Positions 13,467 to 63,407 of a DNA stretch of 64,000 bases are shown piece after piece. The notes under the pieces are model-generated. The model saw nothing but the letters and a program-made list of their open reading frames with translations, did no database searches and had not been told where the DNA came from. Origin of the DNA: Kappaphycus alvarezii (taxonomy: Eukaryota; Rhodophyta; Florideophyceae; Gigartinales; Solieriaceae); assembly GCA_002205965.3 (NCBI GenBank), contig NADL03000554.1, positions 186,001 to 250,000 on the forward strand. Direction: 5' to 3'. The first letter of the stretch is position 1; the number at the start of each line of letters is the position of its first letter. Both the position numbers and the translations under genes were made by a program.

Positions 13467-14021
13467 TGATGTGCGCAAATTTCGCGCACGAAAAAAAATC
13501 TAGATGAGGACCATAATTGTATACAGTATCGGATTTGGGAAGATATTTTTACAGTTTTGAATTTGCAAGATATATTTTAATTTGGGTGAGTGTGGCAAAT
13601 TCATCGGTTGATTTTTCATTTTAGACACGCTGTCATAGTAGATGTCAGTACAGTTACAGGTGTGGGTGATACTACAAGTAGCTCTGAAAGTCTATATAAT
13701 GGCAACATCAATTCCCACCCCTGGCCGATGGGGCTGGCATGGGTATGGCACCTAGATATTTACCTTGAGGAAATTTCTCCTAATAGTCTATCTGATTCAC
13801 ACGATTCCCGTGAATTCATTTTATGGTTATTAAGTTGTGTTTGAGAACTTTGTGGTAGCCAAAAGTCTATATAAGCCGAGTAAACTGCTTTATTTAGTGG
13901 AGTGAAGCAAGTTGGCAGACAACTTCAAGCCCAGTACCAGATAGTTAGGAAGTGAGAGTGAACTTCAGACCCAAGAAGAATTATTTTACGCTAGTCACTA
14001 AGCACAGGTGGCAGACCCAGC
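13467..14021 (+). mobile_element. Partial Ty3 LTR, short-U3 type
   Basis: Begins TGATGTGCGCAAATTTCGC and runs parallel to the 3' LTRs at 26805 and 62685, through AAAGTCTATATAAGCCGAG and the AAGTTGGCAGACAACTT hairpin. It stops in GGTGGCAGACCC where the U5 should continue. It is cut off by an inverted LTR fragment. Confidence 0.75.
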
Positions 14022-14228
14022 GATTGGAGGAGGAGGTAAGCTAAAAGGGAAAAGGGACTTGATTCGGGGTCGATTCAGAGGGTTAAATACAGTATAAAAA
14101 TATCTAGATAAATGGAAGTAAATTTGGAATGACGGTGGGAGAGTTAGGGCGGATCTGTAGGTTGCTGGATTACAAGAAGGGAGGACCATTTCCTGTATTA
14201 AATTAGGGAGGACCATTTTTGTATTACA
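14022..14228 (-). mobile_element. 5' end of a coding-U3-type LTR, inverted
   Basis: Reverse complement of the start of the 5' LTR at 19280: TGTAATACAAAAATGGTCC at 14228-14210, continuing to the TTAGCTTACCTCCTCCTCC region at 14022. A GGAGGACCATTT segment is duplicated in tandem at the start. Truncated against the previous LTR piece. Confidence 0.7.
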
Positions 14229-16284: not shown

Positions 16285-16932
16285 TGTGAGGGTTGAAAAA
16301 TCATATAAGGAGCCGGAAAATATGGATCAGGTGATCCCGACTCTGCAACCAGATGGGGCCGTTCTCAGTGGTCTAGATATTCCCAGGAGGCAAGGAAAAT
16401 TCCAAGCCGTTCGCGGATATTTGTGTGGACTGCCTGGGTGGAATGGATATTTTGGGGGAATTGTTTGGCTATGATCTAGACGACTAAGATATTTAGGAAG
16501 GAATCTAGATATTTATCCTGATGGTGTGTGCTGTTAACCTTTCTCGTTCACACGATTTCAATTGATGCATTTATGGTTCTTAGTATGTTTCTTTGAGACT
16601 TTAGGGTAGCCGAAAGTCTATATAAGCTGAGTAAACTGCTTCCTCCTTGAGAGTCAAGCAAGTTGGCAGACAACTTCAAGCCCAGTCACAAATAGTTAGG
16701 AAGTTGAGAGTCAACTTCAGAGCCAAGAAGAATTTATTTTACGCTAGTTACTAAGCATAGGTGGTAGACCCTGCCCCTTCCATACTTGCTTGTAGTCCAT
16801 TCAAACTGTCTTCCCTATCCACTCCTTTCTGTTCGTTCAACTATACCACGGTAGCACTTTGTCGCTAGCAACACCTCCTTCTTGGGTAATTGGTTCTGAG
16901 GATCTCTTCCCCTGCTGATTTATCCCTATTAA
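16285..16932 (+). mobile_element. LTR remnant with the end of the LTR-encoded ORF
   Basis: From about 16310 it reads EPENMDQVIPTLQPDGAVL and GLDIPRRQGK, the C-terminal part of the acidic LTR protein. It continues into the TATA region (AGTCTATATAAGCTGAG), the paired hairpins and the U5, ending at CTGATTTATCCCTATTA near 16932. The first part of the LTR is missing. Confidence 0.7.
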
Positions 16933-19279: not shown

Positions 19280-19678
19280 TGTAATACAAAAAAATGGTCC
19301 TCCCCTCGTGTAATCCAGCAACCTACAACGATCCCGCCCCTAACTTCTCCCACCGTCATTCCAAATTTACTTCCATTTTATCTAGATTTTTATACTGTAT
19401 TTAACCCTCTGAATCGACCCCGAATCAAGTCCCTTTTCCCTTTTAGCTTACCTCCTCCTCCAAATTCGCCTTTTTTTGAGAAGAAGGGCGCAAATGCACT
19501 ACTGCAAAATCCCTTGCAGATTTATTTTACCTATTCCTAATCTATAGAACCTGCCCCGGGAGCCTATTTAAACCCCTTTATTCTAAGTTCCAAATGCCCC
19601 GATCATTTTACTCATCACCCCTCTCCCCCACACACCCAAACACCCTACATTGCCTCCTGTTCCCCAACGTCTATCACA

Positions 19679-20289
19679 ATGACAACCTTCGCCCCTCTGT
19701 CCCTATTTCCAAAAACCGCCCTTCCGTTCCATCAATGGCCTTCGTCTCGCCGCCTACGGGCCAACCGATGCCGACGACTACATCCGGCGGCAAACAAAGA
19801 AGCAAATCATCGAGTTCGTCGCCGCCTCTTCATAGAAGAAGAAGCGAGGGAGGTAAGTCCGGGAGAGGCTGAGAAGGTCGAGGAGGAGAGCGGGGAGTCC
19901 TTCGAGGAATGGTTAGCCCCTGAGCTAGTGTACGAGGCTCAGGAGAGATGAGGAGGAGAGAGAGGAGGATGAGGAGGAGATGAGGAGGAGGAAGGAGGAG
20001 AGGAGGAGGAGGAGGAGGAGGAAGAGGAGGAGGAGAGGAGGAGGAGAGAGAGGAGGATGAGGAGAGGAACAGGGGGCATGGAAAGTGTTGGACTGGTGGG
20101 GCCTGGAATAGAGAGTATGGATCAAGTTGTGCCCACGATGGAACCGGATGGAGATATCTTTAGTAGTCTAGATATCTCCCAGGGGGAAATAGAGAGTTGT
20201 GAGCCATTCGCAGATATTTGTGGGACTGCTTGGACAGCATGGATATTTTAGAGGAGTTGTTTGGATCTGATTTAGAGAATGGGAAATAA
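19679..20289 (+). pseudogene. LTR-encoded acidic protein (Ty3-A copy), frameshifted
   Basis: The U3 codes, in pieces of different frames, a protein also seen in other LTRs. Segments: DNLRPSVPISK near 19680, YGPTDADDYIRRQTKKQ near 19755, an acidic stretch ending FEEWLAPELVYEAQE near 19900-19945, a Glu-rich run from GAGGAG repeats, then ESVGLVGPGIESMDQVVPT near 20080 and LDISQ near 20170. It contains no recognisable enzyme motif. Alternative frames are shadows. Function unknown: acidic and charged, with a short Cys-containing tail. Expression would have to start upstream of the LTR TATA box, or from the 3' LTR of a read-through transcript. Confidence 0.6.
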
Positions 20290-20417
20290 GAGGACCAAAT
20301 TAATTGTTAGTTTCTTAAGTATCTTTTGCTTAGAGTATATTGTCCACACAAAGTATTTTTATGCATTTCTTGGTATCTTCTGTAGTTTTGTTCGGACTTT
20401 AGGGGTAGCCAAAAGTC

Positions 20418-20425
20418 TATATAAG
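20418..20425 (+). promoter_or_regulatory. LTR TATA box
   Basis: TATATAAG within AAAAGTCTATATAAGC, conserved at the same place in the LTRs at 13467, 16285, 27209 and 63093. In the Ty3-C 5' LTR (56303) it is changed to TACATAAG. It fixes the likely transcription start at about 20450. Confidence 0.7.
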
Positions 20426-20459
20426 CTGAGTAAACTGCTTCCTCATGGAGAGGTCAAGC

Positions 20460-20517
20460 AAGTTGGCAGACAACTTCAAGCCAAGTCCCGAGTAGTAGGA
20501 AGTTGAGAGTCAACTTC
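20460..20517 (+). ncRNA. Two adjacent stem-loops at the predicted 5' end of the Ty3 RNA
   Basis: AAGTTG-GCAGA-CAACTT (20460-20476) and GAAGTTG-AGAGT-CAACTTC (20499-20517) share the same stem sequence. Both recur in most LTRs of the family. They lie about 35-90 bases after the TATA box, so in the R or leader region. A role in packaging, dimerisation or strand transfer is only inference. Confidence 0.5.
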
Positions 20518-20731
20518 AGACCCAAGAAAACTTTTTCTTACGCTAGTCGCAGAGCGTCAGTGGTAGACCCTGCCCCTTTTATACTTGCTTGTAGCTTCTC
20601 AACTCTCTTCTATATACACTCCCTTTTGTTCGTTCAACAATACCACGGTAGCACTTTTGTCGCTCGCAACACCTCCTTCTCAGGGTAATTGGTTCTGAGG
20701 ATCTCTTCCCCCGCCGATTTACCCCTATCAT

Positions 20732-20818: not shown

Positions 20819-22489
20819 ATGGATCTCAATGCTGCTCGTATAACGTTCACAGGGGGCAAGACTGAAGACGTTGAGGAGTTTCTTTACACATATGTCAACG
20901 TTGTGATGCGAGAGAAGGGCGATGAAGAGAAGGCCGCAAGTATCTTCGCCTATCTTCATGGTGACGCAAAGCACAAATATAAGTCCAAGTTTATCGACGG
21001 GTGGTCTCTTAACGGGAATGGGCGTAACTTCGGTGAGGTATGTGAGTGGCTTGTGAAAGAGTATGCTAAGGAGGTAGAACCAGATGAGATGATTCGTACC
21101 GCCATAGAGGCCCGGCTCAACTTCGACGATTTGTTAAGCTCATTGGTGTACTTGTGTGATCTTTATGAAAAGCTGGGTTCAACGCCCAAGCCAAGTACGG
21201 AATGCTGCGTAAGGCGGCTATGGGGATAGCGCTCTCCGAATTTCCTCCTCATCAAGGGCCCTCACACTTTGATGAACTGAAGGGTACCATAGTAGAATTT
21301 GTCAAAAATTCGGAGACGTTTCAGTCACTGAGTGAGGTACCGAGGGAAACCCGCACATCGATGTCTATCGTACATCCTGAAAAGAATTATCAAAGGCCGG
21401 CTACTAGTGCAGCGGCATTAGAATCTGTCAGGAGCGATGTCAAAAACTTGGAAGAAAGGTTGGAAACCCGATTCGATAATCGACTTGACATGATAACCTC
21501 GCAGTTGGAAAGCCTTACTCTTACCATTAAGAAGAACCAGTCTGGGGCCCCTAAGGCCGCAGAAGTCTGTTCTTACTGTCACAAGCCTGGACACTTTGCA
21601 AACAGGTGTCCTGATAATCCACATAGAAACACTCGTTGTGCAAAGTGCGGTCGATATGGGCATCATGAAAGTAACTGCTGGTCTAAAGACAACAGAAGAG
21701 CAAATTTATCGGAAGCAAGGAGTGAGTCAGGGACCAGAGGTGAAAATCTTACAAAATAGAAGGGATCAAAGGTTGACGGATGCCGGTAACGTATCCATCG
21801 CTGAAGAGATTAGTCAAGTCAATGTGACAAAAAGGGATGGGGAAGGGAACATTTTATCGAAGAAACCTAGGCTAGAGTATGGAATGCTGGAGCATATCCC
21901 AGCACCTGTACCTCCTCGAACCAAGAGGTCTGATCAAGTTGTTCCAGGAGTGGGAGTCACTCCGGCCAAGAAGACGAAAAAGAGTAAGAAAGTTAAGAGT
22001 ATCTCTAAGGACGTACTAGAGTATGTGAAGAGGTACAATTTGGTGGCTGAGCTTGCATCGGCCCCAACTGGGATAACGTTTGGTCAACTTTTGAGGGGCG
22101 ACGCAGAGGATGCGAGAAAAGAACTCAAAAAAATTATCAGGTCTAATAAGTCCGCTAAGGGTAAGAAACTGTTTCTTCAATCGGCCTCGACAGCACCAAG
22201 ACGTCTTAAGCTGGTACCAGTCAAAGTATTGGGTATGAAAACCCAAGCTCTCTTCGATTCGGGTGCTGTTCCAAACCTCATTTCAGAAACTTTGGTGACA
22301 GATCTAGGTCTCGAAATTACTCCAACGACTCGAAAAATAACTGTAGCGGATGGAACCGTCTCAAAATGCATGGGCACTGTTGACAAGGTTTCCGTGTTCT
22401 TTGGGGACTCTAAAGTTGATGTAGACTTTCTTGTCATGCCGGATCTCCCTTTCGATGCAATCATTGGCTGCCCACAATGGAAAGACTAG
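20819..22489 (+). pseudogene. gag: Ty3-A gag and protease, frameshifted
   Basis: Gag opens at ATG 20819 (MDLNAARITFTGGKTEDVEE) and continues through a capsid-like helical region. A frame change near 21180 leads to 21202-21759. There a nucleocapsid part has two CCHC knuckles (CSYCHKPGHFANRC near 21568 and CAKCGRYGHHESNC near 21640). A further shift near 21740 leads to a Lys-rich linker and the aspartic protease, with LFDSGAVPNLIS (DSG catalytic) near 22252 and FDAIIGCP near 22453. Gag packages the RNA and protease matures Gag-Pol. A matching region is at 56706-58384. Near-identity starts only after about 21100; before that the two differ by many substitutions. Confidence 0.85.
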
Positions 22490-22769
22490 GACATGCATTG
22501 ACTTGGGCAACCAAATGGTTTCAGTTAATATTGACGGCAGAACCGTGAAGATGCCCCTGGATTTCGACAAAAGCACGCATCCTGAAGATTTAAAAGAAAC
22601 GGACAGTGAAGATTTCACTTCTAGCTATGACAGCGAAGATTCGGAACCAACTAACACTTTCGGAAGTGGAAAAGGGTACCCTCGGGGGTAATGAACATGG
22701 CATGGGACGATTATGATTCGGGTTTGAAACAGATGACGACTGGAATTCTAGGATAAGTTTGAAACCCGA

Positions 22770-25700
22770 ATGTGTTTTTTTTGCGATGATATCGAATCAA
22801 AGGACAGAATTCGGAGCATGAAAGAAGATTACCTTTGCAAAGAAAATAAGAATACGTCGAATTCCATATATGAAGATGTGAGCACGACGGAAGAGGTCCT
22901 TCAAAATATTGAGGTTGAGGATCAAGAAGAAAAAGGGCGCCAAATGGCAGAAATCCAAGGAAAAGTGCAGCACCTTCCCGCCCCCGCCTCACTGAAAATA
23001 TCCGACATGTTAACATCTTCCGAAGTAATTGCATGGAGCGTTTCAGATTTAAGACAAGCAAGTGTACCGGTTACTCACTCGTTCGAACTTACCGACACTC
23101 AACCGATTTACCACAAGCCTAGACGTCAACCGCCAAAATATGACCAATTTATCTCAGAAAATGTTACAAGTATGCTGAAAAATGATATTATTCGACCAGT
23201 TTCATCCCCATGGTCGTTTCCAGTTGTGGTCGCACCAAAGAAGGATGGAAAGCTGCGTTTTTGCGTCGATTACCGACAACTGAACCAGAGAATGATACCC
23301 GATCGATTTCCGATTCCGAACATGGAGGAGATCCTCGAGGACCTGAAGGACGGGAGATATTTCACCTCAATTGACCTTTACACTGGCTATTGGCAGATTC
23401 CATTGGATGAAAAATGTAAGGAAAAAACAACCTTTACCAGCAAAGCCGGTACGTTCAGGTTCGAAGTGATGCCTTTTGGTCTCATGAATGCACCAGCTAC
23501 ATTCCAAAGAATGATGAACGAGGTTTTGAAAGGACTTCCATTCGCAAGAGTCTATATCGATGATGTCGTCATATTCTCAGAAACATTGGATCAGCACATC
23601 TCGCACGTCAAGACAGTTGTGGAGAGGATATCGGAGTATAGCTTGAAAATTAAGTTGAGCAAATGCTTCTTTGCGAAAACTTCTATCCAATTACTCGGTC
23701 ATATCGTCGACCAAGAGGGAATTAGAGTGGATCCAGAGAAAACGAAAAAAATAAAGTTGGCACCAAGGCCCGCTTCAAAGACGGAGGTCCGAAGCTTCTT
23801 AGGACTGGCCTCATATTACAGAAGATTTATCAAAGATTTCGCCAAGACTGCAGCACCGTTACATGCCAGCACTACGAAGAACGGAAAATTTTACTGGAAC
23901 AAGGAAATGGAAACTGCATTTCAGGAGCTTAAAGATAAGCTATGTGTCCCCCCAGTTCTCATGTACCCAGATTTCAAGAGACCATTCGTTGTGGAGACAG
24001 ATGCCTCAGAACGGTCTTTGGGTGCCGTTTTGTCCCAAAAAGATGAAAACGGAAGACTACACCCTGTTCAATTCGCAAGCCGAACTCTGAATGATGCGGA
24101 AAAGAGATACTCAGTCTGCGAGAAAGAAGCGCTAGCTGTCGTCTTCGCGCTGAAAAAGTTTCGCGTATACCTTTTATCACTCGAGAAATTTGTCTTGATA
24201 ACTGATCACCAGGCACTTAAAACAGCATTCCAAAAGAAGGATGTACATCACCGCTTGGCCCGATGGCTCGACATTTTCGCAGAATATCGGTTTGAAATTG
24301 TGTATAGACCCGGACGCAATAATCAGCCTGCCGATTACCTATCCCGCTTGAGGGACGCACTGATTCCAAATGAAAAAGCTTCGGAGGACATCGTCGGAGT
24401 CGCCGAGTTGCAGTTGCCGAACGATAACGAGTACGAAGCTAATATTCACGGACTGATCAAATTCCTCGATGGACTAGAAATGAGAAAGGTTGATCTTGAA
24501 CACCGAAATTGGGTACGCAGGAATCAAAAGGCTTTTACATTGTGGAATGGGAAACTCTTCCGGCACACTAAAGCCGGTCCCCGACTAGTGGCCCCTTTGA
24601 AAGAAAGAATGAAGATCTTGAGGACTTTCCATGATGAGCTAGGGCATTGGGATCTCGAAACAACCAAAAAATTCGTAACTGAGAGATTCTGGTGGCCCGG
24701 TATCCATAAGGACGTCTATAATTTCGTGAAAAGCTGCGACAACTGCCAAAAATTCACTCCAATACGGAAGTATAAGACAACTCTAAGTTTTCCAGTTTCC
24801 GGTCTCTTTGAAACCTTCTCAATTGACTTCGCGGGCCCGTTCAAGGAAACTTCTTCCGGAAACAAATATCTCCTTATAGGGGTGGAACATCTTACTGGAT
24901 GGCCAATAGCAGTTGCATCGAGGAGGCAAATGCTGAGGTGGTACTGAGATTCATCGAAAAAGAAATAATTGAACCGTTTGGTCTTCCAAAAAGGATCATC
25001 TCGGATAACGCCCTTTGTTTTACTGCAACTTCACTGCTTCGTTTTTTGGAAGAGAAAGGGATTCAGCTGAAGACCGTTCTCGCATACGCTCCTATGTCCA
25101 ACGGGAAAGCGGAGAGGATGGTTGGAACCATCAAACGAGCAATATCGAAAACTATGTTGGAGAATGAAATCCAGTGGGAAGATGCCTTACCAAAAGTGTT
25201 ATACGGCTACCGTCGAAGAAGAGGAAGAAATGGACGCTCACCATTCGAGCTAATGTACGGAAGGGCTCCTAGAATGTTACAGAGAGACATGGAAACAAAT
25301 ATTATCGATGAAGAGAGTAGGGAAGTTGAACTACTGGCCACCGAAGGCTGGAGATCACACCGCGCGCTAACACAGACAAGAAATAAGGATGCAGAACCTG
25401 CAGTCAGAACCTTTTCAGTTGGCTCTAAAGTACTTGTAGTACATGGAAAAGCAATGCAGCAGGCTGTGAAGTGGCCGGCCTTCCAAACCAAGTACTCGAA
25501 CCCTTGCATCGTCACGGAGGAAAGACACCCGCACTATCAGCTCTGTTCAAGCTCAGGGAAGAGATCAAGGAGGGCCATCCATGCACGTCGTCTGGTCCCT
25601 TACCATCAGAGGCCTGAAGAATTCCTTCTCACACAGGACTATGCGCAACCACGGGGCATACTCATCTTTAACTATAGAATGATTCCTATGGGAGGAAAAA

Positions 25701-26146
25701 GGGCCTGGGAATGGATCATCTCGGTTACGCGGGACTACTACGAACTCCACGTAATCATCCATTTCTACATTAATATATGCCTATGTTTTCGTACGTTGAA
25801 CGGACCATTGCTACCTGAAGAAGATTTCCGACTATTAATAAGAGTTCTATTTTCATTCCAAAACGGAAGGTTCACGGAAGCAGGTCCAGAGTTTGTGGAG
25901 GTAATATATCATTACTCTATAGGAAGATATGGAATGGTAGCTGCTGGAGACTTGTCGCAAACGTATCTGAATATTATCCGTCCAATTTACGTATTTCTCA
26001 AGAACAACCAAGACGTGCGACTGAGAGGTTACGCCTTACCCCCGGATATGGAATACAGCTGGTCCCGTATCCTCTATGGGAACCTTACGTTTCTCCGCCA
26101 CAAATTGGGAACGTTGGAGGCGGCGAGGATCCTCCTGAAGCAGTGA
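22770..26146 (+). pseudogene. pol: Ty3-A pol: reverse transcriptase, RNase H, integrase
   Basis: Frame 22770-24947 carries an acidic linker, then the RT: LRFCVDYRQLN, TSIDLYTGYWQIPL, FEVMPFGLMNAPATFQ and the catalytic YIDDVVIF near 23554. RNase H follows with ETDASERSLGAVL (near 23995), CEKEALAVV and TDHQALKTAF. Integrase begins with the HHCC zinc-binding part (HDELGHW near 24630, CDNCQ near 24740). A frame change near 24915 moves to 24899-26146, which has the second and third catalytic residues: IISDNALCF near 24999 and MSNGKAERMV near 25096; the first Asp is in SIDFAGPF near 24822. A chromodomain is not evident. No stop separates the integrase C-terminus from ORF3. Confidence 0.92.
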
Positions 26147-26804: not shown

Positions 26805-27521
26805 TGATGTGCGCAAATTCGCACACAAAAAATCTAGATGAGGACCATGATTGTATACAGTATCGGAATTGGGAAGATATTTTTACAGTTTTTGAATTTG
26901 CAAGATATTTTTAATTTGGGTGAGTGTGGCAAATTCATCGGTTGATTTTTTCATTTTAGGACACGCTGTCATAGTAGATGTCAGTACAGTTCCAGGTTGT
27001 GGGTGATACTACAAGTAGCTCTGAAAGGTCTATATAATGGCCACATCAATTCCCACCCCTGGCCGATGGGTGGCTGGCATGGGTATGGCACCTAGATATT
27101 TACCTTGAGGAAATATCTTCTAATAGTCTCTCTGGTTCACACGATTACCGTGAATAATTTTATGGTTATTAGTATGTTTGTTTGAGACTTTTGGGGTAGC
27201 CAAAAGTCTATATAAGCCGAGTAAACTGCTTCCTTTAGTGGAGGTGAAGCAAGTTGGCAGACAACTTCAAGCCAAGTCCCGAGTAGTAGGAAGTTGAGAG
27301 TCAACTTCAGACCCAAGAAAACTTTTTCTTACGCTAGTCGCAGAGCGTCGGTGGTAGACCCTGCCCCTTTTATACTTGCTTGTAGCTTTCTCAACTCTCT
27401 TCTATATACACTCCCTTTTGTTCGTTCAACAATACCACGGTAGCACTTTTGTCGCTCGCAACACCTCCTTCTCAGGTAATCGGTTCTGAGGATCTCTTCC
27501 CCCGCCGATTTACCGCTATCA
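26805..27521 (+). mobile_element. Ty3-A 3' LTR, 717 bp, short-U3 type
   Basis: TGATGTGCGC to TTTACCGCTATCA. In place of the acidic-protein ORF it has about 150 bp with an extra TATA-like TATATAATGG (27031). The usual TATATAAG is at 27209. It closely matches the Ty3-C 3' LTR (62685-63407). Confidence 0.88.
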
Positions 27522-33802: not shown

Positions 33803-36636
33803 TTGCCCCGAGCTGATCAGGTTTTCACAACCCACATACCGGTGATTTGTCACATCCCGACACGGTTCCGGCCTGCCCTCAGTGAACACCTCTCAAAAGC
33901 TCTACAAGAAGCTGCACATGCGTGTGACGCGGGACAGGACGGCACGCTGGATGCACTAAGCAAAGTCTTTCTCTTCCCTTCAGTGATGCTCTGTAACACA
34001 ACGGGTTGGCAACTCCCAAACGGCGATGATGACGCAAGCGCTCACACCAATGCAGAAATATTCAGGGAACGGATCAGACTATGGAACGCGGGACAATACG
34101 ATACCCTCTGGCAAGCAGCGCTTGCCCAGTGCACCTACAGGGCCTCGAAAAAGCTGTCACAGTCAGAACAAAAGCAGGCGAACATCAGACGTGCGTTGAG
34201 CCTTGCCAGAGGGGGCGCTTACGGAAAGGCGGCGCAAGCACTAAACTCAATCGGCGTCCTCCGCAACACAAGCCGTATCTGACGCACTCCGTGGAAAACA
34301 CCCACAGGTAACCCCGGTAGCCCACGTGCCCAAGTTCGTTCCGCCTGCCTCCATCCCCCCGCCTACCAAAATCACCGCGAAGAGGTCCTTCGTGCAGTCC
34401 GCTCGTTCAAACCTGGCTCCGCTCCGGGCGGCTCCGGCCTTCGCCCCTCCCACCTCGATGAGTTGCTACGCGCTCCGTCTTCCTCTTCTCGTGGAGGAAT
34501 GCTGCATTCGCTTACCGAACTCGTCAATGTCCTAGCAGCCGGAAAAGCGCCACCCGCTCTGGCTCCGTGGATCGCGGGGGCACCACTTACCCCGCTTGCT
34601 AAAGCGGACATGACGCCCCGTCCCATCGCCGTCGGCGAGACACCGAGACGTTTGGTGAGTAGCTGCCTCATGTCGCAATCCTTTACAAAGGCGGCGAGCT
34701 ACTTACAACCAATCCAAGTTGGCATTGCGACGAGGGCCGGGGCCGATACCATTGTGCACGCCGTCCGACGAATGGTTAATACAGTTGGCAAGTCATCAGA
34801 TTTTGCGCTGCTTTCAGTGGATCTTAAAAATGCTTTCAATCTTTGCAGTCGATCTGCTTTTCTCGAAGCGGTTCAAACGCATTTTCCACAACTGCTGCGC
34901 TGGGTAATGTATTGTTACAACGATCCAGCACATTTGTGGACGGGTTTCGACACACTACGTAGTGTGACCGGTGTCCAGCAAGGCGACCCGCTCAGCGGCT
35001 TGCTCTTCGACATGGTTCTCCATAGGCTAACCTTGAGGATACAAGACATGCTGACGTTGTCGAACGGCGACAAAGAGGTCCAAGAGATATTCCTACAGCT
35101 GTGGTATCATGATGACGGCTACATAGTGGCCAAACATGCCTCTCTGTTGAAAGCTATCGCAATTCTGTCCTCTCCCGAGGCAAAGCGCCTCGGTCTACAC
35201 TTGGCACTTCCCAAGTGCAAAATATGGAGGCCCACGGCTCCAGACGAGGTCGTCACAGCCGCGTACCCCCCGGAGATCCAACAAGTCTACAGCGAGGGAA
35301 CTGCGGTCCTGAATGCGCCTATCGGCTCAAATGATTTCATGAGGCACTACTTCACCAACCACGTGCTCTCTCTGGAACCCTTTAAGCAGACCGTCACGGA
35401 ACTTCAGGATACACAGGTTTCCTTCCAGATTTTAAGAAACTGCTTAGGGGTATGTAAGTTGGGCTATCTCCCTCGGGTCGTGCCACCATCGTGCACCATC
35501 GAAGGAGCCACCTATTTCGACAAGCCGATGGAACAGTCGATAAGGACTTTGGCAGGAGGCGTCCTTGATAGCACAGTCTTTCGGGAGCTGCAACTCCCGC
35601 TCAAACAAATTGAGGAGAAAAAGTCTACATTAGGAATCGGCCTTACATCAGCCAAAGACATCGTCGCAGCCGCCTTCCTCGCATCTAGCTCACATACAAA
35701 CAAGCTAGGTGAGCGATGCCTGCCGTCTGCAGTGAGCGACTTGGCAACTTACGAGGAGGCCAAGATGGCATCCACTCAATGGAATTCATCTTGCCGCCCG
35801 GTCGACAGGCTCCCATTCAGACGATTTTGTTCCAACCCTCCATCGCAAAAGACACTGACTGACGCAGCCCATGCTGCAATATATGAAGAGCTTCCGGTGG
35901 GTAGTTGCCGTACACAGGCCTTCAGGGCCTCAATGAGTCTCCCAGGTGCCAAGTAATGGGTCCATTGCCCTCCTACAACAGGCTTGAATACCGCAATAGG
36001 CACACGACATTTCTTGGTGTGGTTCAAATACTATTGCCAAGCCCCGCTCTTCGAGCCAGGGAGACCTTGTCAAAGAGTCGGATGCACGGAAACCGTGGAC
36101 GTCCACGGCGACCACTTGATCCACTGCAGGTACGGAGCGCAACGGGTCGTCCGCCACGATGACCAAGTCACCCTACTAAGTAACGACCTGAGCCTAGGCG
36201 CAAGGCATCCTGCTGTCGAGCGCCGGTCGCACGGGGAACACAAAACAAGGCCGGACATCAGGGCGACGGGCGCCACCGGCGGTACCGATTACTTCGATGT
36301 GGCCTTCGTGAACCCACTGGCCCCTTCTCACCTCAGAATGAGAACCTTCGACCCCTTACCAGCTTGAACGCAGCCCATGCGGACAAGCTACGAAAATACC
36401 AGGGATTCTTAGCCAGCTTACCTGGAAGGAACAGACTCGTGCCCGTTCCTATCTCCACACTTGGATGGTGGTATCCCGAAGCGTTCCGCCACATCACGGA
36501 GGTAGCCCGAGCGGTCGCCAACCAAGCCCTGGACCAATACTCCAGGGTGAGGACAATTCTCCTCCAAAGACACGCGGCGTTGATGGTCACCTCCAACGCA
36601 GCTTGCTTGTCAACCGGTCTACCAGCTACTTTCTAG
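33803..36636 (+). pseudogene. NLR-3: non-LTR reverse transcriptase with restriction-like endonuclease
   Basis: Best-preserved non-LTR ORF here. 33803-34282 encodes the pre-RT region (AALAQCTYRASKKLSQSEQK, GKAAQALNSIGV). 34463-35956 is the RT: motif A FALLSVDLKNAFN near 34800, motif B QQGDPLSGLLFDMVLH near 34975, motif C YHDDGYIVA near 35104, then LGLHLALPKCKIW. In-frame stop TAA at 35954-35956 separates it from the endonuclease part: a Cys/His cluster (CQRVGC...HGDHLIHC), RHDDQV, RPDIRATGATGG and DYFDVAFVNPL near 36230-36315. A frame change near 36358 leads to the C-terminal tail ending at 36636 (QRHAALMVTSNAACL). One stop and two frame shifts disable it. This tail is what recurs across the window. 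Confidence 0.87.
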
Positions 36637-39368: not shown

Positions 39369-39577
39369 ATGAGTACTTCATCTTCGGCTACGAAGAAGGA
39401 TATGGAATTTTCGGATCAAGAGAAGGGTCGCATTGAAAAGGAACAAAGCCGCATCCCACGTGGAATCAGGAATATCGATCGAGTCTACGAACATTTGGAA
39501 GCATCACTGGAACTACCCAAGGATCAAATTCTGGATTCTTTGCAAAATGAGTTGACACCGGACGTTATGTTACAGAA
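39369..39577 (+). pseudogene. Unidentified short ORF cut by an LTR remnant
   Basis: ATG 39369 opens MSTSSSATKKDMEFSDQEKG and continues, Lys/Glu-rich, to ELTPDVMLQ. The frame then enters the reverse complement of LTR sequence near 39577. It resembles the start of a small soluble protein or a Gag, but I do not recognise it. Confidence 0.3.
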
Positions 39578-40588
39578 GGTACCAGGAAATGCATTAAAAC
39601 AGTTTGTGTTGATGACATACTCTAAAAAAAGATACTTAAGAAAATAAAAATCAATAGGGCCCTCTTATTTCCCATTCTCCAAGTCAAATCCAAAAAACTC
39701 CTCCAAAAATACCCATGCTGCCAAGCAGTCCCTACAAATATCTGCGAACGGCCCATAGCTCTCTCTCCCCTCCTGGGAGATATCTAAACTACTAAAGATA
39801 TATACATCCGGCTCCAGCGTCGGCACCACTTGTTCCATACTCTCCAGTTCAGGCCCCACCAGTCCAACACTATCCATGCCCCCTGTTCCCTCATCCACCT
39901 CGTCCTCGTCCTTGTCCTCATCCTCCTCCTCTTTCTATTCCTCCTCTTCCTCCTCTTCCTCCTCTTTGGCCTCCGCATCCTCCTCACCCTCCCCGTCATT
40001 AATCTCGTAGACCATTTCAGGGAGCTACCCACTCCTCGAAGGTCTCTCCAGCTCCATCTTCGATGTCCCACTCCCGCCCCTTTCCTACCTCCTCCGCCTC
40101 ATCCTCAATAAAAAGGCGACACACGAATTCGATAACCTTCTTTTTGGTTTGCCTGCGCAGGTAGTCCTCGCGGTCAGTAGGTCCGAAAGGGATTAGGGGA
40201 ATGGAGTCTAGGGGGCGGGGATGGCGATTTTTGGAAATGACTTTTGAGGGGAACAGATTATTTACTTGGGTATTCTTTGTGGAATGGGAGGCAATGGAGG
40301 GTGTTTTGGGTGTGTGTTGGGAAAGGGGTGATGAGAAAAATGATCGGGGACGTTTAAAACTTGGAATGAAGGGGGTTTAATAGGCCCCGGGGCAGGTTCT
40401 GTAGATTAGGAATAGGTAAAATAAATCTGTAAGGGATTTTGTAGTAGTGCATTTGCGCCCTTTTTCTCAAAAAGCGAATTTGGAGGAGGAAAAAAGCAAA
40501 AAGGGAGAAATATCTTGATTCGGGATCGATTCAGAGGGTTAGATATAGTATAAAAATATCTAGATAAAATGGAAGTAAATTTGGAGAG
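39578..40588 (-). mobile_element. Coding-U3-type LTR remnant
   Basis: Minus-strand relative of 19380-20395. It lacks the first 100 or so bases and everything from the TATA box on. It retains the AACCTGCCCCGGGG region and the complete course of the acidic-protein ORF. Confidence 0.8.
39664..40190 (-). pseudogene. LTR-encoded acidic protein, best-preserved subfamily-A copy
   Basis: On the minus strand: FGPTDREDYLRRQTKKKVIE (near 40190-40130), FVCRLFIEDEAEEVGKG, GETFEEWVAPE, then a Glu run, DEDKDEDEVDEGTGGMDSVG, LVGPELESMEQVVPTLEPD, FSSLDISQEGRESYG, CRDCLAAWVFLEEFFG and FDLENGK ending at a TAA near 39676. Only one single-base frame change (near 40020) and one TAG in the Glu run (near 39935) interrupt it. 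No known domain. The acidic low-complexity middle lies between two more conserved ends. Confidence 0.6.
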
Positions 40589-41189
40589 GACCGCGGTGAT
40601 GATAAGCAAGGCTCTGGGAGGACGAGGAAGGACCGGAACTATAAGCAAATTTGGACAAGGAGAGGTAGTACAGTAAACTAAAGTTCTGTAGATGACGGCG
40701 ACAAAAAATCGTTCCTATCAGCACGCGCCTAACATACTTTTCAAACGTCTTGAAAGACTTATTTGAGTCGAGTAAGGTTCTTTGTTCATAGATGTGAAAC
40801 GCAATAAAGGAGTTCAGCACTACACTTTCAAGGTTTAAAACGACCAGGTTCTGCTCCCACTTTAAATGAAACGTGGAAGACCGTAGCATTGCCATTTATT
40901 GCGTTTCCCCATCTTGTTGGTTTTTTGCTGTATACTGTACGGGGAGAATTTTTGGGTTACTTTAATGCATGGAAGATGTGTTCGGTTATATCCACGAGGC
41001 TAATAAGTTATGCGGGATAGGTCCTCGCTGACGGTGGATCGTGATTCAAAAGATTTAAACAAGTAAAGAACTCCATTTCAGAACATGCCGATTAGTAACT
41101 TTCTAAAACGAGAGCCGAGACTCCACCAAACTTCGGAAAGAGCCTTAGACCAAGGCATGGATCTCATAGGGCTCTTCATGGGCCTATTG
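40589..41189. other. No gene; one faint 3' unit
   Basis: About 40945-40995 (TTTTTGGGTTACTTTAATGC then ATGGAAGATGTGTTCGG) faintly resembles the non-LTR 3' unit. The rest has no recognisable content. Confidence 0.35.
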
Positions 41190-42785: not shown

Positions 42786-44097
42786 TTATAAGGTAAAATC
42801 GTTGGAAAAAGAGATGCTCAGAACCAACTACCCCAAGAAGGAGGTATTTCGAGCGACAAAATTGCTACCGTGGTATAGTTGAACGAACAAAAAGGTATGT
42901 TTACGGAAGAGAGTTGAGAGGGCTACAAGCAAGTATGAAAGGGGCAGGGTCTACCACTGATGCACTGATGCTCTGGGACCAGCTTAGGAAGAATGTTGCT
43001 TTGGTTTGAAGTTGACTCCCAACTCTTTACTACTCGGAGCTTGGCGTGAAGTTGTCTGCCAACTTGCTTGACCTCCACAAGAGGAAGCAGTTTACTCAGC
43101 TTCTATAGAATTTTCGGCTAACCCTAAAGTCTCATAGAAACATAATAAGAACCATAAAATACACCAAATTGAATCGTGTGAACGACAACGACTAACAGCA
43201 GATACTATCAGCATAGGTATCTAGATTCTTTCCTTAATATCTAACTCCTCTATATGAGAGCCAAACAGTTCTCCCAAAATATCCATCCCATCCAGGCAGT
43301 CCACACAAATATACGCGAACGGCTTAGAATTTTCCATTGCCTCCTGCGAAATATCTAGATCACTGAGGACGCCCCCATCCGGTTCCAGATTCGGGACCAC
43401 CTGGTCCATATTTTCTGGCTCCTTCCCTACTAATCCAGCACTTTCCATGTATCCCTCCCCTCATCCTCCTCTTCACTCCTCTCTTCACATTCGTCAGAAG
43501 AATCAGAGATGACAATTAATCCCTCACTCTCCCCTTCATTCTCCATGGGAGCCCCCTACCGTTATACAATAGTGGCTCCCACGGATTTACGCAGTCGTCG
43601 TCCTCTTCTTCCTCCTCTTCCTCCTCTTCCTTGTTTGCATCTTCAGCCTGCTCGAAGCAGTTACGGCGGACCCACTCCCGAACGCGTTCCCGGTCCAACC
43701 TTCTACAGTAATCATCGTAGTCAGTTGGACCATTTTCCATTAGGGCCAAAGCGTTGAGTGGACGGCGTCCTCGGGATGACTTGGTGATGGTGAGGGAAGG
43801 GCGGAGGTTGGTCATGTTAAGGGCCAAAAGAAGGAGTGAGCTGATGGGGTAGTTGATGGCGGGGGTTGCCTCAACGACGTCGATTTCGAACTTTAAGTAC
43901 TGCGACATCTTCGAAAAGTAAGACGACCTTGGACATGTACAGTAAAGGCACCTATTAATGATACAGGGTCTTAAAATAAAAAATCAATCCATGATTTTGC
44001 GACACCCATTAAAATTACAAGTATCTTCCGAATTCCGATACTGTACACAATTTTGGTTCTCTTCTAGATTTTTTCGTGTGCGAATTAGCGCACATCA
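42786..44097 (-). mobile_element. Ty3-B 3' LTR, about 1312 bp, coding-U3 subfamily 2
   Basis: Reads on the minus strand from TGATGTGCGCTAATTCGC (44097) to a decayed end near 42786. Its first 200 bases and its R-U5 parallel the short-U3 LTRs, but its middle codes the acidic protein. Very similar to the solo LTR at 50693-52032. Confidence 0.85.
43221..43908 (-). pseudogene. LTR-encoded acidic protein, subfamily 2 (Ty3-B 3' LTR)
   Basis: First part 43908-43516: MSQYLKFEIDVVEATPAINY, MTNLRPSLTITKSSRGRRPL, NGPTDYDDYCRRLDRERVRE, WVRRNCFEQAED, then a run of Glu and VNPWEPLLYNG. An acidic frame follows (NEGESEGLIVISDSSDECEE), and a second part 43448-43221: MESAGLVGKEPENMDQVVPN, LEPDGGVLSDLDISQEA, FAYICVDCLDGMDIL and FGSHIEELD. 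Two frame changes or short introns would join them. GPTD-DDY-RR and MDQVVP-LEPDG are shared with subfamily A at 39664-40190 despite poor DNA similarity. Confidence 0.6.
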
Positions 44098-50590: not shown

Positions 50591-50692
50591 AACAGCCATG
50601 TTATGAACTACTTTCTTGTGTACAATACTCTAAATTGCTCAAGTTCTCTCTTGAGTTGAACTTTGGACCAATTATACAGAATGTGGCCGATC

Positions 50693-52032
50693 TGATAGGG
50701 TTAAATTTTCGGAAGAAAAGATACTCAGAACCAACTACCCCAAGAAGGAGGTATTTCGAGCGACAAAATTGCTACCGTGGTATAGTTGAACGAACAAAAA
50801 GGTATGTTTACGGAAGAGAGTTGAGAGGGCTACAAGCAAGTATGAAAGGGGCAGGGTCTACCACTGATGCACTGATGCTCTGGGACCAGCTTAGGAAGAA
50901 TGTTGCTTTGGTTTGAAGTTGACTCCCAACTCTTTACTACTCGGAGCTTGGCGTGAAGTTGTCTGCCAACTTGCTTGACCTCCACAAGAGGAAGCAGTTT
51001 ACTCAGCTTCTATAGAATTTTCGGCTAACCCTAAAGTCTCATAGAAACATAATAAGAACCATAAAATACACCAAATTGAATCGTGTGAACGACAACGACT
51101 AACAGCAGATACTATCAGCATAGGTATCTAGATTCTTTCCTTAATATCTAACTCCTCTATATGAGAGCCAAAACAGTTCTCCAAAATATCCATCCCATCC
51201 AGGCAGTCCACACAAATATACGCGAACGGCTTAGAATTCTCCATTGCCTCCTGCGAAATATCTAGATCACTGAGGACGCCCCCATCCGGTTCCAGATTCG
51301 GGACCACCTGGTCCATATTTTCTGGCTCCTTCCCTACTAATCCAGCACTTTCCATGTATCCCTCCCCTCATCCTCCTCTTCACTCCTCTCTTCACATTCG
51401 TCAGAAGAATCAGAGAGATGACAATTAATCCCTCACTCTCCCTTCATTCTCCATGGGAGCCCCCTACCGTTATACAATAGTGGCTCCCACGGATTTACGC
51501 AGTCGTCCTCTTCTTCCTCCTCTTCCTCCTCTTCCTTGTTTGCATCTTCAGCCTGCTCGAAGCAGTTACGGCGGACCCACTCCCGAACGCGTTCCCGGTC
51601 CAACCTTCTACAGTAATCATCGTGGTCAGTTGGACCATTTGCAATCAGGGCCAAAGCGTTGAGCGGACGACGGCCTCGGGATGAATTGGTGATGGTGAGG
51701 GAAGGGCGGAGGTTGGTCATGTTAGGGGACAAAAGAAGGGGTGGGCTGATGGGGTAGTTGATGGCGGGGGGTTGCCTCCACGACGTCGATTTCGAACTTT
51801 AAATACTGCGACGTCTTCGAAAAGTAGGACGACCTTGGACATGTACAGTAACGGCATCTATTAATGGCACAGGGTCTTAAAATAAAAAAATCACCCCATG
51901 CCTTTGCGACACTCATCAAATTGAAAATATCTTCCAATTCAGAAGCTGTAAAAATATCTTCCAAATTCTGATACTATATACAATTTTGGTGCTCTTCTAG
52001 ATTTCTTTTCGTGTGTTAATTTGCGCACATCA
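50693..52032 (-). mobile_element. Solo LTR, 1340 bp, coding-U3 subfamily 2
   Basis: Minus-strand LTR from TGATGTGCGCAAATTAACAC (52032) to AACCCTATCA (50693). CGATC on the left (50688-50692) and CGATT on the right (52033-52037) fit a 5-bp target duplication with one change. No internal region is attached, so recombination between two LTRs has removed it. Confidence 0.85.
51128..51795 (-). pseudogene. LTR-encoded acidic protein in the solo LTR
   Basis: 51732-51433 has MTNLRPSLTITNSSRGRRPL, NGPTDHDDYCRRLDRERVRE, WVRRNCFEQAEDANKE and the Glu run. 51355-51128 has MESAGLVGKEPENMDQVVPN to the C-terminal CVDCLDGMDI. It differs from the Ty3-B copy by few substitutions and a handful of single-base or short indels, one of which breaks the start region (51780). 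Confidence 0.6.
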
Positions 52033-52816: not shown

Positions 52817-53385
52817 ATTGATAGCGGATGATATTTTGAGAACTAACTATTCCATGACTGAGGTGTTGCAAGCGATATGGGCGCTTTCCAAGAATGGTTG
52901 TGGGAAACGTAAAAGATGAATAATGACATCGGTAAGGGGCTACAAGTAAGTATAGAAGGGATGATGTATGTTACTTTTACTCAGGGACTAGTGTAAAAGA
53001 CATGCTTTTGAGGGCATAAGTTGACTTCTAACTTCTGAACTAATTACGTTGCACTTGAAAATGTCTCCAACTTGCTTGCCGTTTCCAAGAGGAAGCAATT
53101 TGCGCAACTTATACATACGTGGCTAAAAGTAAAGTATTCAACAAAATAAGTACCATGAAACGCATCAAAAGAATCGTGGGGAAGAGAAAGTCTGACAGTA
53201 GAAACTATCAGGTTAAATATTTGGATCTTTCCCCCAAAATCATCATCCTCAAGATCAGAGCTAAATAATTCCTCCAAAGAATCCGTAATAGGAGAGAAGA
53301 GGGCGGAGCCATCAGAAGAGTACTCCTTAAGAAGAACAAAGCAACGATGCTCCGTTTCGCATTCTAATTCCAAATAATCTTTTTT
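52817..53385 (-). mobile_element. Ancient LTR remnant
   Basis: The minus strand still shows the U3 end, GCAAGTTGGAGACATTTTCA, GAAGTTAGAAGTCAACTT, TTTTACACTAGTCCCTGAG, ATCCCTTCTATACTTACTTG and TATCAATTTACC, all in LTR order. The frame 53373-53044 at its upstream end reads SLEELFSSDLEDDDFGGK, comparable to the end of the LTR-encoded protein (DILGELFGSHIEELD). Confidence 0.6.
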
Positions 53386-53829: not shown

Positions 53830-55500
53830 TTAATGCTCTGCTCTCCGCCGAGTCCTGGATCCATCTGAGACCTCCTTTTCTCTGTAGTCACAGACATCAT
53901 CGTCTAAATTCTCATCGTTCTCTGAGCCATTTTTACATGTACGAGGGTTGTGCGTAATCAATGCAACCAGAAGGTCAGTTTCTGCTTGAGACGATTCAAA
54001 TAAATTTGATCTCGTGCCACTCAAAACGGACCCTCTGAGAATCATGAATTCTCAATCAACAGCTTCTAAGCATCTTTTGGTCAAATTAAAACAATCATAA
54101 GATTCCCCAACTAGATCGCAAGATCTCTGAGTTGCGATAGCAGCCAATCCTGTCGTTATAGTCCACGCGATTGAGTTCAATATCTTTCTATCCTTTGGAC
54201 AAAAAGTATCCAGTACTTCTACGCTTGTAACTTTTTTATGTTCTTCAACCTTCACATTACTCACGGTAGGTCCAAACACGACTTTCGAAATGCATGCCTA
54301 CCATTTTCGAAGTGAAACGAATAATCTTTGATTAATGCAACGAAAATAACGATAAAATGTTGTCTGGTAGATTCTAAAACCAGTAGTGGGTTTGTCAGGC
54401 GCATTAGCAAGCATTGAATACTTCAAGACGTTCTGTGGAAACAAGTTTTTTCTGTTTTTGGGGACCTGTGGGGATTGCGTGACAACTGCGTATGGGTAGG
54501 AAAACACATCAAAAGAGAAGTCTCGAAATTCGTTAGCCCAAAAATGGTGATAGCCATATTCACGGAGTAAAAAGCAGACACGAACAACAACAAGAAATCT
54601 CTCAAAAAACTCTGCCAAGGCCTCCTTCTCTTTCCTTGTGATGAATTATTTATAGTTACGATCAGATGTGTGTGCGACACATCAAGGAGGCTCTGTTAAA
54701 GTAATATAATACTGCTGCAAGCCATTCAAATCCTACCTTTCGATACCCTTATAGGAATTCTTCACACATTTTACGCTAAGCGTAACAAAGAGAGTCGTTT
54801 GAGACCTGACAGAGGTATGCTAAATATTTGGTTAAGTGAATGTTCCGTACTCGTCATTCGAATCTTGGCAACGTAGCTCACACTCACCTTCCTATTCGCC
54901 TGATAAAATTAAAATCGACGCTTTCTGTGTTTGGGAGTCTTTGCAAACACTCTTAACGTCAATTTTAGCAGGACAGACTGACGGTTCCGTGCTACAATTT
55001 TTTAAGCATTCACAGATTTATGTCCGCTATGCTCACGTATTTCGCTGAGAGCATAGTCAATGCGACGATTCGGACCCAGAATAAACAGCTCTTTGAACTT
55101 CTTTTCTTTGCTCTGAAACACGATGATGTTATTTAATTTGTATCCCTCTACATATTTCTCCATAATTGAATTGCAAAGGTATTATAATGGGGTTGATGCA
55201 TCTCTTGCGACTATTCTTTTCCAATGCCACAAAAAGACATGATTTTTTCGGAACGAAAAAGGTCCTCTTTGCATCTTGAACTCCGTCCTTGACCAATCGT
55301 TCTACCTTTGTCTTCTTAAAACAAATTTTGAATTCGTGATCACCTCGCCTCCCAAATTCAGTTCCGATATTTTATCACGCAGATTTTTATGGCGCCCCCG
55401 AATTCATGCAAATCCAAGGCCGCAATATCGCCATTTTGTTTAGACCAAGACCATGATGGTTATCAAAGACATGCCCCTATTTAAAGTGCTATAGCATTGT
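53830..55500 (-). pseudogene. Unidentified minus-strand coding-like tract
   Basis: Successive minus frames (55500-55080 in pieces, 54618-54298, 54279-54052, 54045-53830) read in one direction and adjoin with few stops. The segment 54279-54052 (CPKDRKILNSIAWTITTGLA then AIATQRSCDLVGE) vaguely recalls the segment before RNase H in copia-like elements. The 54618-54298 segment is aromatic-rich. No motif is decisive. It is most likely a decayed retroelement or an old gene. Confidence 0.25.
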
Positions 55501-55584: not shown

Positions 55585-56618
55585 CCAGAAATATGACGCC
55601 AAATCGCCCCTCTGTCCCTATCTCCAGAAAACCGTCCTTGTAGTCCCATCAATGGCCTCTGTCTCGCCGCCTACGGGCCAACCGATGCCGAGAGTGCATC
55701 CGGCGGCAAACTAAGAAGAAATCATCGCGTTCGTTCGCCGCCTCTTCATAGAGGAAGAGGCGAGGAAGTCAAGTGAGGATGAGACTGAGAAAGTCGAGGA
55801 GGAGTGCGGGGAGTCCTTCGAGGAATGATTAGCCCCTGAGCTAGTGTACGAGACTCAGGAGAAGGATGGGGAGGAGAGGAGGCTGAGGAGGCTGAAGAGA
55901 AGGAAGAGGAGGAAGAGGAGGAAGAGGACAAGGACGAGGACGAGGTGTATGAGGGAACAGGGGAATAGAAAGTGTTGGACTGGTGGGGCCTGGACTGGAG
56001 ACCATGGAACAAGTGGTCCCGACGTTGGAACCGGATGGAGATATCTTTAGCAGTTTAGATATCTCTCAGGAGGGAATAGAGAGCTATGAGCCGTTAGCAG
56101 ATATTTGTGGGAACTGCTCGGGCAGCATGGATATTTTTGGAGGAGTTTTTTGGATCTGATTCGGAGAATGGGAAATAAGAGGACCTCATTGATTGTTATT
56201 TTCTTCAGTATTTTTTTAGAGTATATCATCAACACAAACTGTTTCAATGCATTTCCTGGTACCTTCTGTAGTTTTCTTCGGACTTTAGGGGTAGCCAAAA
56301 GTCTACATAAGCTGAGTAAACTGCTTCCTCATGGAGAAGTCAAGCAAGTTGGCGGACAACTTCGAGCCCAGTCCCAAATAGTTAGGAAGTTGAGAGTCAA
56401 CTTCAGACCCAAGAAGAGTTTATTTTACGCTAGTCACTAAGCATCAGTGGTAGACCCTGCCCCTTCCATACTTGTTTGTAGCCCATTCAACTCTCTTCCA
56501 TATACAATCCTTTTTATTCGTTCAACTATACCATCGTAGCACTTTTGTCGCTTGCAACACCTCCTTCTTGGGGTAATTGGTTCTGAGGATCTCTTTCCCT
56601 GCCGATTTATCCCTATCG
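55585..56618 (+). mobile_element. Ty3-C 5' LTR, coding-U3 type, left end truncated
   Basis: Similar to 19680-20730, with acidic-ORF pieces (GLRL, AAYGPTDAES, FEE, LAPELVYETQEKDGEE, Glu run, LDWWGL region), TATA changed to TACATAAG, paired hairpins, and U5 ending CCCTATCG. The first 400 bases of the LTR are absent or unrecognisable. Confidence 0.7.
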
Positions 56619-62684: not shown

Positions 62685-63407
62685 TGATGTGCGCAAATTC
62701 GCCCACGAAAAAAAATCTAGATGAGGACCATGATTGTATACAGTATCGGAATTGGGAAGATATTTTTACAGTTTTTGAATTTGCAAGATATTTTTAATTT
62801 GGGTGAGTGTGGCAAATTCGTCGGTTGATTTTTTCATTTTAGGACACGCTGTCATAGTAGATGTCAGTACAGTTCCAGGTTGTGGGTGATACTACAAGTA
62901 GCTCTAAAAGGTCTATATAATGGCCACATCAATTCCCACCCCTGGCCGATGGGTGGCTGGCATGGGTATGGCACCTAGATATTTACCTTGAGGAAATATC
63001 TTCTAATAGTCTCTCTGGTTCACACGTTACCATGAATACATTTTATGGTTATTAGTATGTTTGTTTGAGACTTTTTGGGGTAGCCAAAAGTCTATATAAG
63101 CCGAGTAAACTGCTTCCTTTAGTGGAGGTGAAGCAAGTTGGCAGACAACTTCAAGCCAAGTCCCGAGTAGTAGGAAGTTGAGAGTCAACTTCAGACCCAA
63201 GAAAACTTTTTCCTAAGCTGGTCGCAGAGCGTCGGTGGTAGACCCTGCCCCTTTTTATACTTGCTTGTAGCTTTCTCAACTCTCTTATATAATACACTCC
63301 CTTTTGTTCGTTCAACAATACCACGGTAGCACTTTTGTCGCTCGCAACACCTCCTTCTCAGGGTAATTGGTTCTGAGGATCTCTTCCCCGCCGATTTACC
63401 CCTATCA
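62685..63407 (+). mobile_element. Ty3-C 3' LTR, 723 bp, short-U3 type
   Basis: TGATGTGCGCAAATTCGCCC to GATTTACCCCTATCA, with TATATAAG at 63093 and the paired hairpins. It is almost the same as the Ty3-A 3' LTR and unlike its own 5' LTR. Confidence 0.88.

Follow-up and report, generated by a model that had tools for sequence, protein, structure and literature searches.

Results

Ty3/gypsy elements and their LTRs

The locus under study is a broken open reading frame (ORF) for an acidic protein, lying inside a truncated LTR, and it is one of several related ORFs found in the LTRs of a Ty3/gypsy family (Table 1). The window, by which we mean the whole stretch of 64,000 nucleotides analyzed (C550:186001-250000; here C### denotes a contig of the 336 Mb, 884-contig assembly and L### a genome locus that was probed or fetched), contains three long Ty3/gypsy elements, A, B and C, and A and C are 96.3% identical along 7.9 kb. 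Pfam searches of element A placed protease families at 21497-22486 and RT, RNase H and H2C2 domains at 22752-24944, giving the order protease, RT-RNase H, integrase, as in Ty3/gypsy; the match to the integrase core (rve; E 2e-5, 25.2 bits) falls under the Pfam cut-off of 32.6. The LTR pair, PBS and polypurine tract (PPT) expected of Ty3/gypsy are also present, and no clear target-site duplication was found at element B or at the element on C172 described below. Searches with pol returned relatives of ∼52% identity in database contigs, with named organisms at lower scores, and a scan with a pol alignment gave four distant loci in genome contigs and no match in viral ones. Two other parts of the window, 588-1490 and 34283-35956, encode reverse transcriptases whose RVT_1 Pfam matches are weaker than that of A, perhaps from non-LTR elements.

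The 5′ LTR of B (∼1340 bp) consists of ∼190 bp of U3, an ORF module of ∼714 bp and a remaining ∼430 bp with a TATATAA-like box, R and U5, and the 3′ LTR of the same element is 94% identical to it over 1345 aligned bases. The 717-bp 3′ LTRs of A and C have both ends in common with the 5′ LTR of B and carry an unrelated ∼110 bp where the ORF module sits elsewhere. The segment with the TATATAA box is present in 8 LTRs of the window with no more than 3 mismatches. The 5′ boundary of the 5′ LTR of A was placed by homology common with 14024-14200. At 53200-53373 lies what is left of an LTR of a third and more distant type (∼65% identity to the LTR of A) with a frame containing DSLEELFSSDLEDD, which resembles the ORF tail.

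Table 1. Elements, LTRs, ORF copies and promoter-like boxes in the window.
Feature	Position	Strand	Basis or remark
Partial solo LTR, ORF-less type	13467..14021	+	
Partial LTR, C-terminal part of ORF alone	16307..16929	+	
C-terminal part of ORF alone	near 16310-16470		
Element A	∼19.3-27.5 kb	+	Self-comparison
5′ LTR of A, type 2 (TGTAATAC...CTATCA), ORF-bearing	19282..20730	+	Self-comparison, boundary reading
TATTTAAA box, putative ORF promoter, 5′ LTR of A	19565..19572	+	114 bp before ORF start
Acidic-protein ORF, 5′ LTR of A	19679..20289	+	Broken
TATATAA box and next bases, presumed genomic-RNA promoter	20416..20442	+	
pol of A: RT, RNase H, integrase zinc-binding domain, integrase core	22752..26143	+	Pfam
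3′ LTR of A, ORF-less type	26805..27521	+	Self-comparison
Truncated ORF-bearing LTR	∼39571-40596	-	
Acidic-protein ORF, truncated LTR (locus under study)	39665..40190	-	Broken
Element B	52.0-42.8 kb	-	Self-comparison
3′ LTR of B, ORF-bearing	42788..44097	-	Similarity to 5′ LTR
Acidic-protein ORF, 3′ LTR of B	43221..43815	-	Frameshifted
5′ LTR of B	50692..52032	-	Starts TGATGTGCGC, ends CTATCA
Acidic-protein ORF, 5′ LTR of B	51128..51720	-	Frameshifted
TATTTAAA box, 5′ LTR of B	51798..51805	-	85 bp upstream of ATG
Faint ORF-tail relative	∼53200-53373	-	
TATTTAAA box, element C	55478..55485	+	115 bp upstream of ATG
Acidic-protein ORF, 5′ LTR of C	55593..56178	+	Broken
Element C	∼55.6-63.4 kb	+	Self-comparison
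3′ LTR of C, ORF-less type	62685..63407	+	Self-comparison

All five longer ORF copies of the window are broken by stops or frameshifts. A first-pass annotation of this DNA had reported related protein segments in U3, all of which were found again; the motifs that it described as common to both LTR subfamilies are real, and the N-terminal half is barely alignable as DNA between the two LTR types and alignable as protein. Its description of an acidic protein encoded within the LTRs applies to the ORF-bearing LTRs and does not extend to all, as the ORF is missing from the 3′ LTRs of A and C and from the partial solo LTR at 13467, where the unrelated ∼110 bp likewise stand in place of the ORF.

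The ORF lies inside the LTR elsewhere in the genome

We probed 58 genome loci (L007-L064, among which seven places came twice) for the ends of the LTR. The 28 loci L007-L034 had been found with the LTR itself, so that both ends are necessarily present; among the 30 loci found with the protein (L035-L064), both LTR ends surrounded the ORF at 28, L047 being without the LTR start and L053 without the LTR end, and the ends at L055 and L061 were weak or partial. The end of pol and the PPT stood directly before the LTR at nine loci (L010, L013, L014, L026, L031, L033, L034, L044 and L051), and the start of the internal region directly after it at two (L017 and L028). Within the LTR the ORF lies wholly in U3, after the LTR start and ending before the TATATAA box.

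On C172, two ORF-bearing LTRs lie 7.6 kb apart; over an alignment of 1537 they show a single mismatch and 13 gap columns. The first LTR is followed by the PBS region. The second is preceded by GGGGGGG and terminates in CTAT, lacking the CA, and the 352 bases ahead of it gave no match to a pol-end probe. In this pair, as in that of C519, the ORF is present in both LTRs and partly frameshifted, on C172 within the acidic tract of both copies. From the LTR ends around the ORF at the genome loci and the C172 pair, we conclude that the ORF is truly inside the LTR, young elements included, and its position means that it can be carried by both ends of an element and by solo LTRs.

Open frames are frequent among the best-scoring copies, which are not a random sample. 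A full-length C-type query gave 208 matches (best 150 of 10545 candidates scored), and 67 of the 91 query-spanning ones among the matches listed (starting no later than residue 6 and ending no earlier than 184; query copy included) have no stop. An A-type C-terminal query gave 150 matches (best 150 of 5927 candidates), 135 without a stop, query included, and a B-type N-terminal query gave 172 (best 150 of 7438 candidates scored). The refuting condition named in the first-pass annotation, that most full-length copies genome-wide lack an open frame, did not apply to these best-scoring copies; on the other side stand two very young elements, C172 and C385, with the ORF frameshifted in both LTRs of the former and in the two LTRs fetched from the latter. 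Open frames also occur in pairs 7.5 kb apart on C849 (4734/12238), C651 (3309/10849) and C687 (1458476/1465994), and the spacing suggests that each pair is one element.

Of 12 A-type places fetched for long frames, 11 have an ORF from the expected ATG, L069 being the exception, and at L074 the frame runs on without a stop to the end of the fetched piece. Together with L038, L039 and L061, we obtained 13 complete ORFs of 182-220 aa in four N-terminal lineages: two Y, seven C-type, one S39-type and three B-type. In the same assembly, C556:83039-84736 (L086) holds a bacterial-type RNA polymerase beta gene, perhaps from an endosymbiont or a contaminating contig. The assembly has full-length RNA polymerase beta-subunit matches and, on C585, C680, C814 and C474, others that are broken or divergent. 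When RPB2 was compared with solved structures, chains of fission and budding yeast scored slightly higher than mammalian chains (1299 and 1272 versus 1265 bits), which hints weakly at a fungal host.

Purifying selection acts between lineages

Pairwise dN/dS was estimated for 10 of the 13 complete ORFs over the non-repeat N and C blocks, with Y represented by L067/L068, the C-type by L070, L073, L075 and L078, and the S39-type by L076. Past selection had been proposed from protein conservation exceeding DNA conservation, and the N block supports it: among these three lineages dN/dS is 0.08-0.20 at a dS of 1.6-2.4, and values near 1 were not seen. The C-block ratios among the same lineages (0.12-1.54) come from too few differences to judge. 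Against lineage B, dS of the N block is saturated (dN 0.44-0.61), and the C block points the same way as the N block, with dN/dS of 0.11-0.24 for complete ORFs and of 0.17-0.31 for the window copies of subfamily B, including the partial copy at 16k, against A, C and the 39k copy, stop codons left out. Within lineages the picture is that of dead copies, most ratios falling at 0.45-1.2, with combined dN/dS of 0.45-0.74 in lineage B and of 0.85-6.1, from few changes, in the C-type; among 48 B-type copies (3 the same) the variation is nearly neutral, with almost no selection.

Codon shuffles gave a sense-frame excess in six N-block pairs (z 5.8-7.3) and in three C-block pairs against B (z 3.4-4.0), and in each case 0 of 2000 shuffles reached the observed value; the other two sense frames reached z of at most 1.7 in between-lineage pairs, and the within-lineage pair L038/L039 showed no sense-frame excess. 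Guiding the alignment by protein gives the sense frame a slight advantage from the outset, and a DNA-guided test agrees with the shuffles: when the window copies were aligned as DNA only, the sense frame exceeded substitution shuffles in six pairs of B against A, C or the 39k copy, at 0 of 2000 for each pair in the N block and at p 0 to 0.01 in the C block. Neither of the remaining sense frames did so, and pairs inside one subfamily were mostly without an excess. Codon-position counts between B and the others gave a weaker signal, third positions showing an excess in the N block (p 0.013-0.17) and none of significance in the C block.

The sense frame is the only one that is both open and strongly conserved. 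One antisense frame echoes it in the N block (z 2.8-4.7, reached by 0 to 8 of 2000 shuffles) because the two have the wobble position in common; an antisense gene was rejected, since this frame has stops in all four N-block pairs. Long antisense frames probably reflect the GAG/GAA repeats. We likewise rejected the open frame as a by-product of those repeats, given the conservation in the non-repeat N and C blocks. The comparisons show purifying selection between lineages, and we regard the LTR ORF as almost certainly a real selected gene.

A recurrent box precedes the ORF

The leaders before the ORF are of three types (A/Y/S39-type, C-type and B-type) with 44-50% global identity across types, and every type has TATTTAAA 84-117 bp before the ATG and upstream of the TATA box of the element itself. 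TATTTAAA, or TACTTAAA, which the 3′ LTR of B reads in its place, occurs at the expected position in 23 of 26 copies, those within one leader type not being independent; the exact form is absent from L076, which reads TATTTACA, and from L047 and L012. The window as a whole contains 4 occurrences of TATTTAAA (3.56 expected), 3 of the 4 before these ORFs. In the C172 LTR the box is at 345, the ATG at 459 and TATATAA at 1223, an order that puts the putative genomic-RNA promoter downstream of the ORF. In the four leaders inspected, A stands at -3 of the ATG. Recurrence of the box upstream of the TATA box of the element suggests a separate transcription unit; from this pattern the ORF probably has its own promoter, with TATTTAAA as the box that would be used for transcription.

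Mosaic LTRs and an ORF-less LTR type

The Y, C-type and S39-type ORFs have nearly identical C-terminal halves (4-7 differences per 210 nt against the C-type, 3 between Y and the S39-type) and far diverged N-terminal halves. Identity climbs from the acidic-repeat tract onward, and earlier between Y and the S39-type. The two ends of a single element may also differ: on C519 the N half is S39-type in the 5′ LTR but C-type, lacking its ATG, in the 3′ LTR, with the downstream part the same, and in A and C an ORF-bearing 5′ LTR is paired with an ORF-less 3′ LTR. On C277 and C385, LTR matches come in threes at a spacing of 7.5-7.7 kb, which suggests tandem arrays with common LTRs. Both the mixed-LTR elements and the tandem arrays would be accounted for if cDNA recombined with resident LTRs.

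A search with the ORF-less LTR gave 40 of 40 scored matches at 97-100% identity, query included (best 40 of 2481 candidates), and some of these LTRs are paired at ∼6.8 kb (C41, C746 and C539). Such identity indicates recent spread, and the ORF-less LTRs appear to be a young expansion without the LTR gene. Their success argues against a strict requirement for the gene in cis, and it is also expected if the gene is dispensable.

The encoded protein is an acidic orphan

The protein is encoded without introns, contains 28-40% D+E, and has a basic helix (DDYxRRQTKKKIIEFVRRLF) and a conserved acidic-hydrophobic tail (LDISQ...PFADICxDCLxxMDILxELFGSDLE). By raw composition in five copies, the best 40-residue window of the last 75 residues has 7-9 W/F/Y/L and a net charge of -7 to -12. 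Two AlphaFold models, of low confidence (mean pLDDT 49.1 and 52.5), each show one N-terminal helix (33-53; 32-60) and a short helix in the tail, and the protein is predicted to be disordered. In the alignment of complete ORFs, VIVISDSSDEDEE, which we take to be SIM-like, is found only in lineage B, in the middle of the protein.

No convincing relatives of the ORF were found in protein searches with the B N-terminal half and the C-terminal part, or in IMG/VR and GTDB contigs, and comparison with solved structures and Pfam gave only composition-type matches. Two Pfam searches returned no match above the cut-off, no DNA-binding domain or known activator was recognised by Pfam, and the superantigen family was absent among Pfam matches up to E 0.1. 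Weak Pfam matches to acidic proteins of the nucleus, BUD22 among them (best E 0.0016), are probably effects of composition. The LTR-encoded protein is an orphan.

Discussion

The LTR-encoded acidic ORF noted in the first-pass annotation holds up and is a stronger observation than first reported; new here are complete copies, a probable promoter of its own, the mosaic make-up of the N-terminal halves and an LTR type that thrives without the ORF. In the arrangement that we propose, the U3 of this family would hold a complete small gene upstream of the TATATAA promoter, R and U5 of the element, in the order TATTTAAA promoter, short leader (of inferred length), ATG and intronless ORF. We infer that the ORF is transcribed and that its product is nuclear, where it may act in trans on LTR transcription as an accessory regulator. 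A putative promoter upstream, a conserved tail and the spread of ORF-less LTRs fit a trans-acting regulator common to the family, and we put the probability of such a role at roughly 0.5. That the regulator is specifically an activator, with the acidic-hydrophobic tail serving as the activation motif, is a tentative suggestion that we hold with less confidence. More speculative still is the full picture in which each LTR of the family is a self-contained regulator gene, solo LTRs are mobile activator genes equipped with a promoter, lineages exchange promoter and N-terminal half by recombination in the acidic-repeat tract, and elements with ORF-less LTRs draw on the activator in trans.

Among the other functions considered, an accessory protein for a post-transcriptional step (genomic RNA export, assembly or nuclear entry) would suit a small product whose helix is basic and whose tail is acidic. 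Rev serves RNA export in lentiviruses. A closer case is CERV, which is needed for export of Cer1 gRNA (PMC10309623); however, that report has CERV made from a spliced mRNA with a 3′ ORF position, whereas the LTR gene sits in U3 with a putative TATA box of its own, and no structured oligomerisation domain is predicted here, albeit from poor models. We consider this role unlikely. Much the same standing belongs to an anti-silencing role, in which the protein would be an acidic decoy that binds chromatin or SUMO and so shields LTRs from host silencing: ORF-less LTRs could profit from it in trans and VIVISDSSDEDEE might bind SUMO if our SIM-like reading is right, but that motif is confined to lineage B and the BUD22-type matches are probably compositional.

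Two further explanations were weighed. If a host gene family had donated the ORF on several occasions, dN/dS could be low with no selection inside the element, and the N-terminal halves and leaders do differ like separate genes, against a nearly identical C-terminal half in three lineages; yet both LTR ends accompany 28 of the 30 protein-found loci, and one end the other two (best-scoring matches), and we hold this origin to be very improbable. Nor do we favor a relic, or a coding sequence captured a single time, that is carried passively in the LTR without present function. It would account for the broken state of every window copy, the neutral-looking variation within lineages, the thriving ORF-less LTRs and the frameshifts in some very young copies, but it is contradicted by the low between-lineage N-block dN/dS, by complete copies in four lineages and by the retained promoter box, and we rate it as scarcely credible.

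LTRs are regarded as control DNA without coding capacity, and a solo LTR as either an inert scar or a stray promoter. With a selected gene in its Ty3/gypsy LTR, this family would mean that a solo LTR can be a gene, and it offers a case in which to test whether trans-acting regulators are made by retrotransposons and exploited by LTR variants that do not code. In the literature searched (best-ranked matches, with subscription journals thinly covered) we found no LTR-encoded protein of a Ty3/gypsy element. The nearest arrangement is that of MMTV sag, a membrane glycoprotein of an animal betaretrovirus with its whole ORF in the LTR, as here, and hence in both LTRs; the protein described here is, in contrast, an orphan acidic protein of a Ty3/gypsy element with no Pfam match to the superantigen family, so that the sag arrangement would be paralleled in another kind of element, probably outside animals. 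Foamy-virus Tas/Bel-1, which begins outside the LTR, is an activator with an acidic region, a DNA-binding domain and a second promoter. It resembles the present ORF as an accessory gene that overlaps the LTR, with a second promoter (putative here) and an early-gene logic, and its acidic region may have a counterpart in the acidic-hydrophobic tail; a DNA-binding domain was not recognised in the protein described here.

The orientation of brtn in the Botrytis element BcGypsy1 is antisense. It is an additional ORF of this fungal element (PMC8365987), and a Gypsy element with an extra ORF is what the two cases have in common. In plants, the additional ORFs that LTR retrotransposons carry are conserved, possibly regulatory and sometimes equipped with their own promoter, and they lie most often between pol and the 3′ LTR (PMC7264820), whereas the ORF reported here is inside the LTR. 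CERV, the accessory nuclear protein of the LTR retrotransposon Cer1, differs in a similar way, being spliced and in a 3′ ORF position (PMC10309623), while the acidic protein of this family is encoded by the LTR itself.
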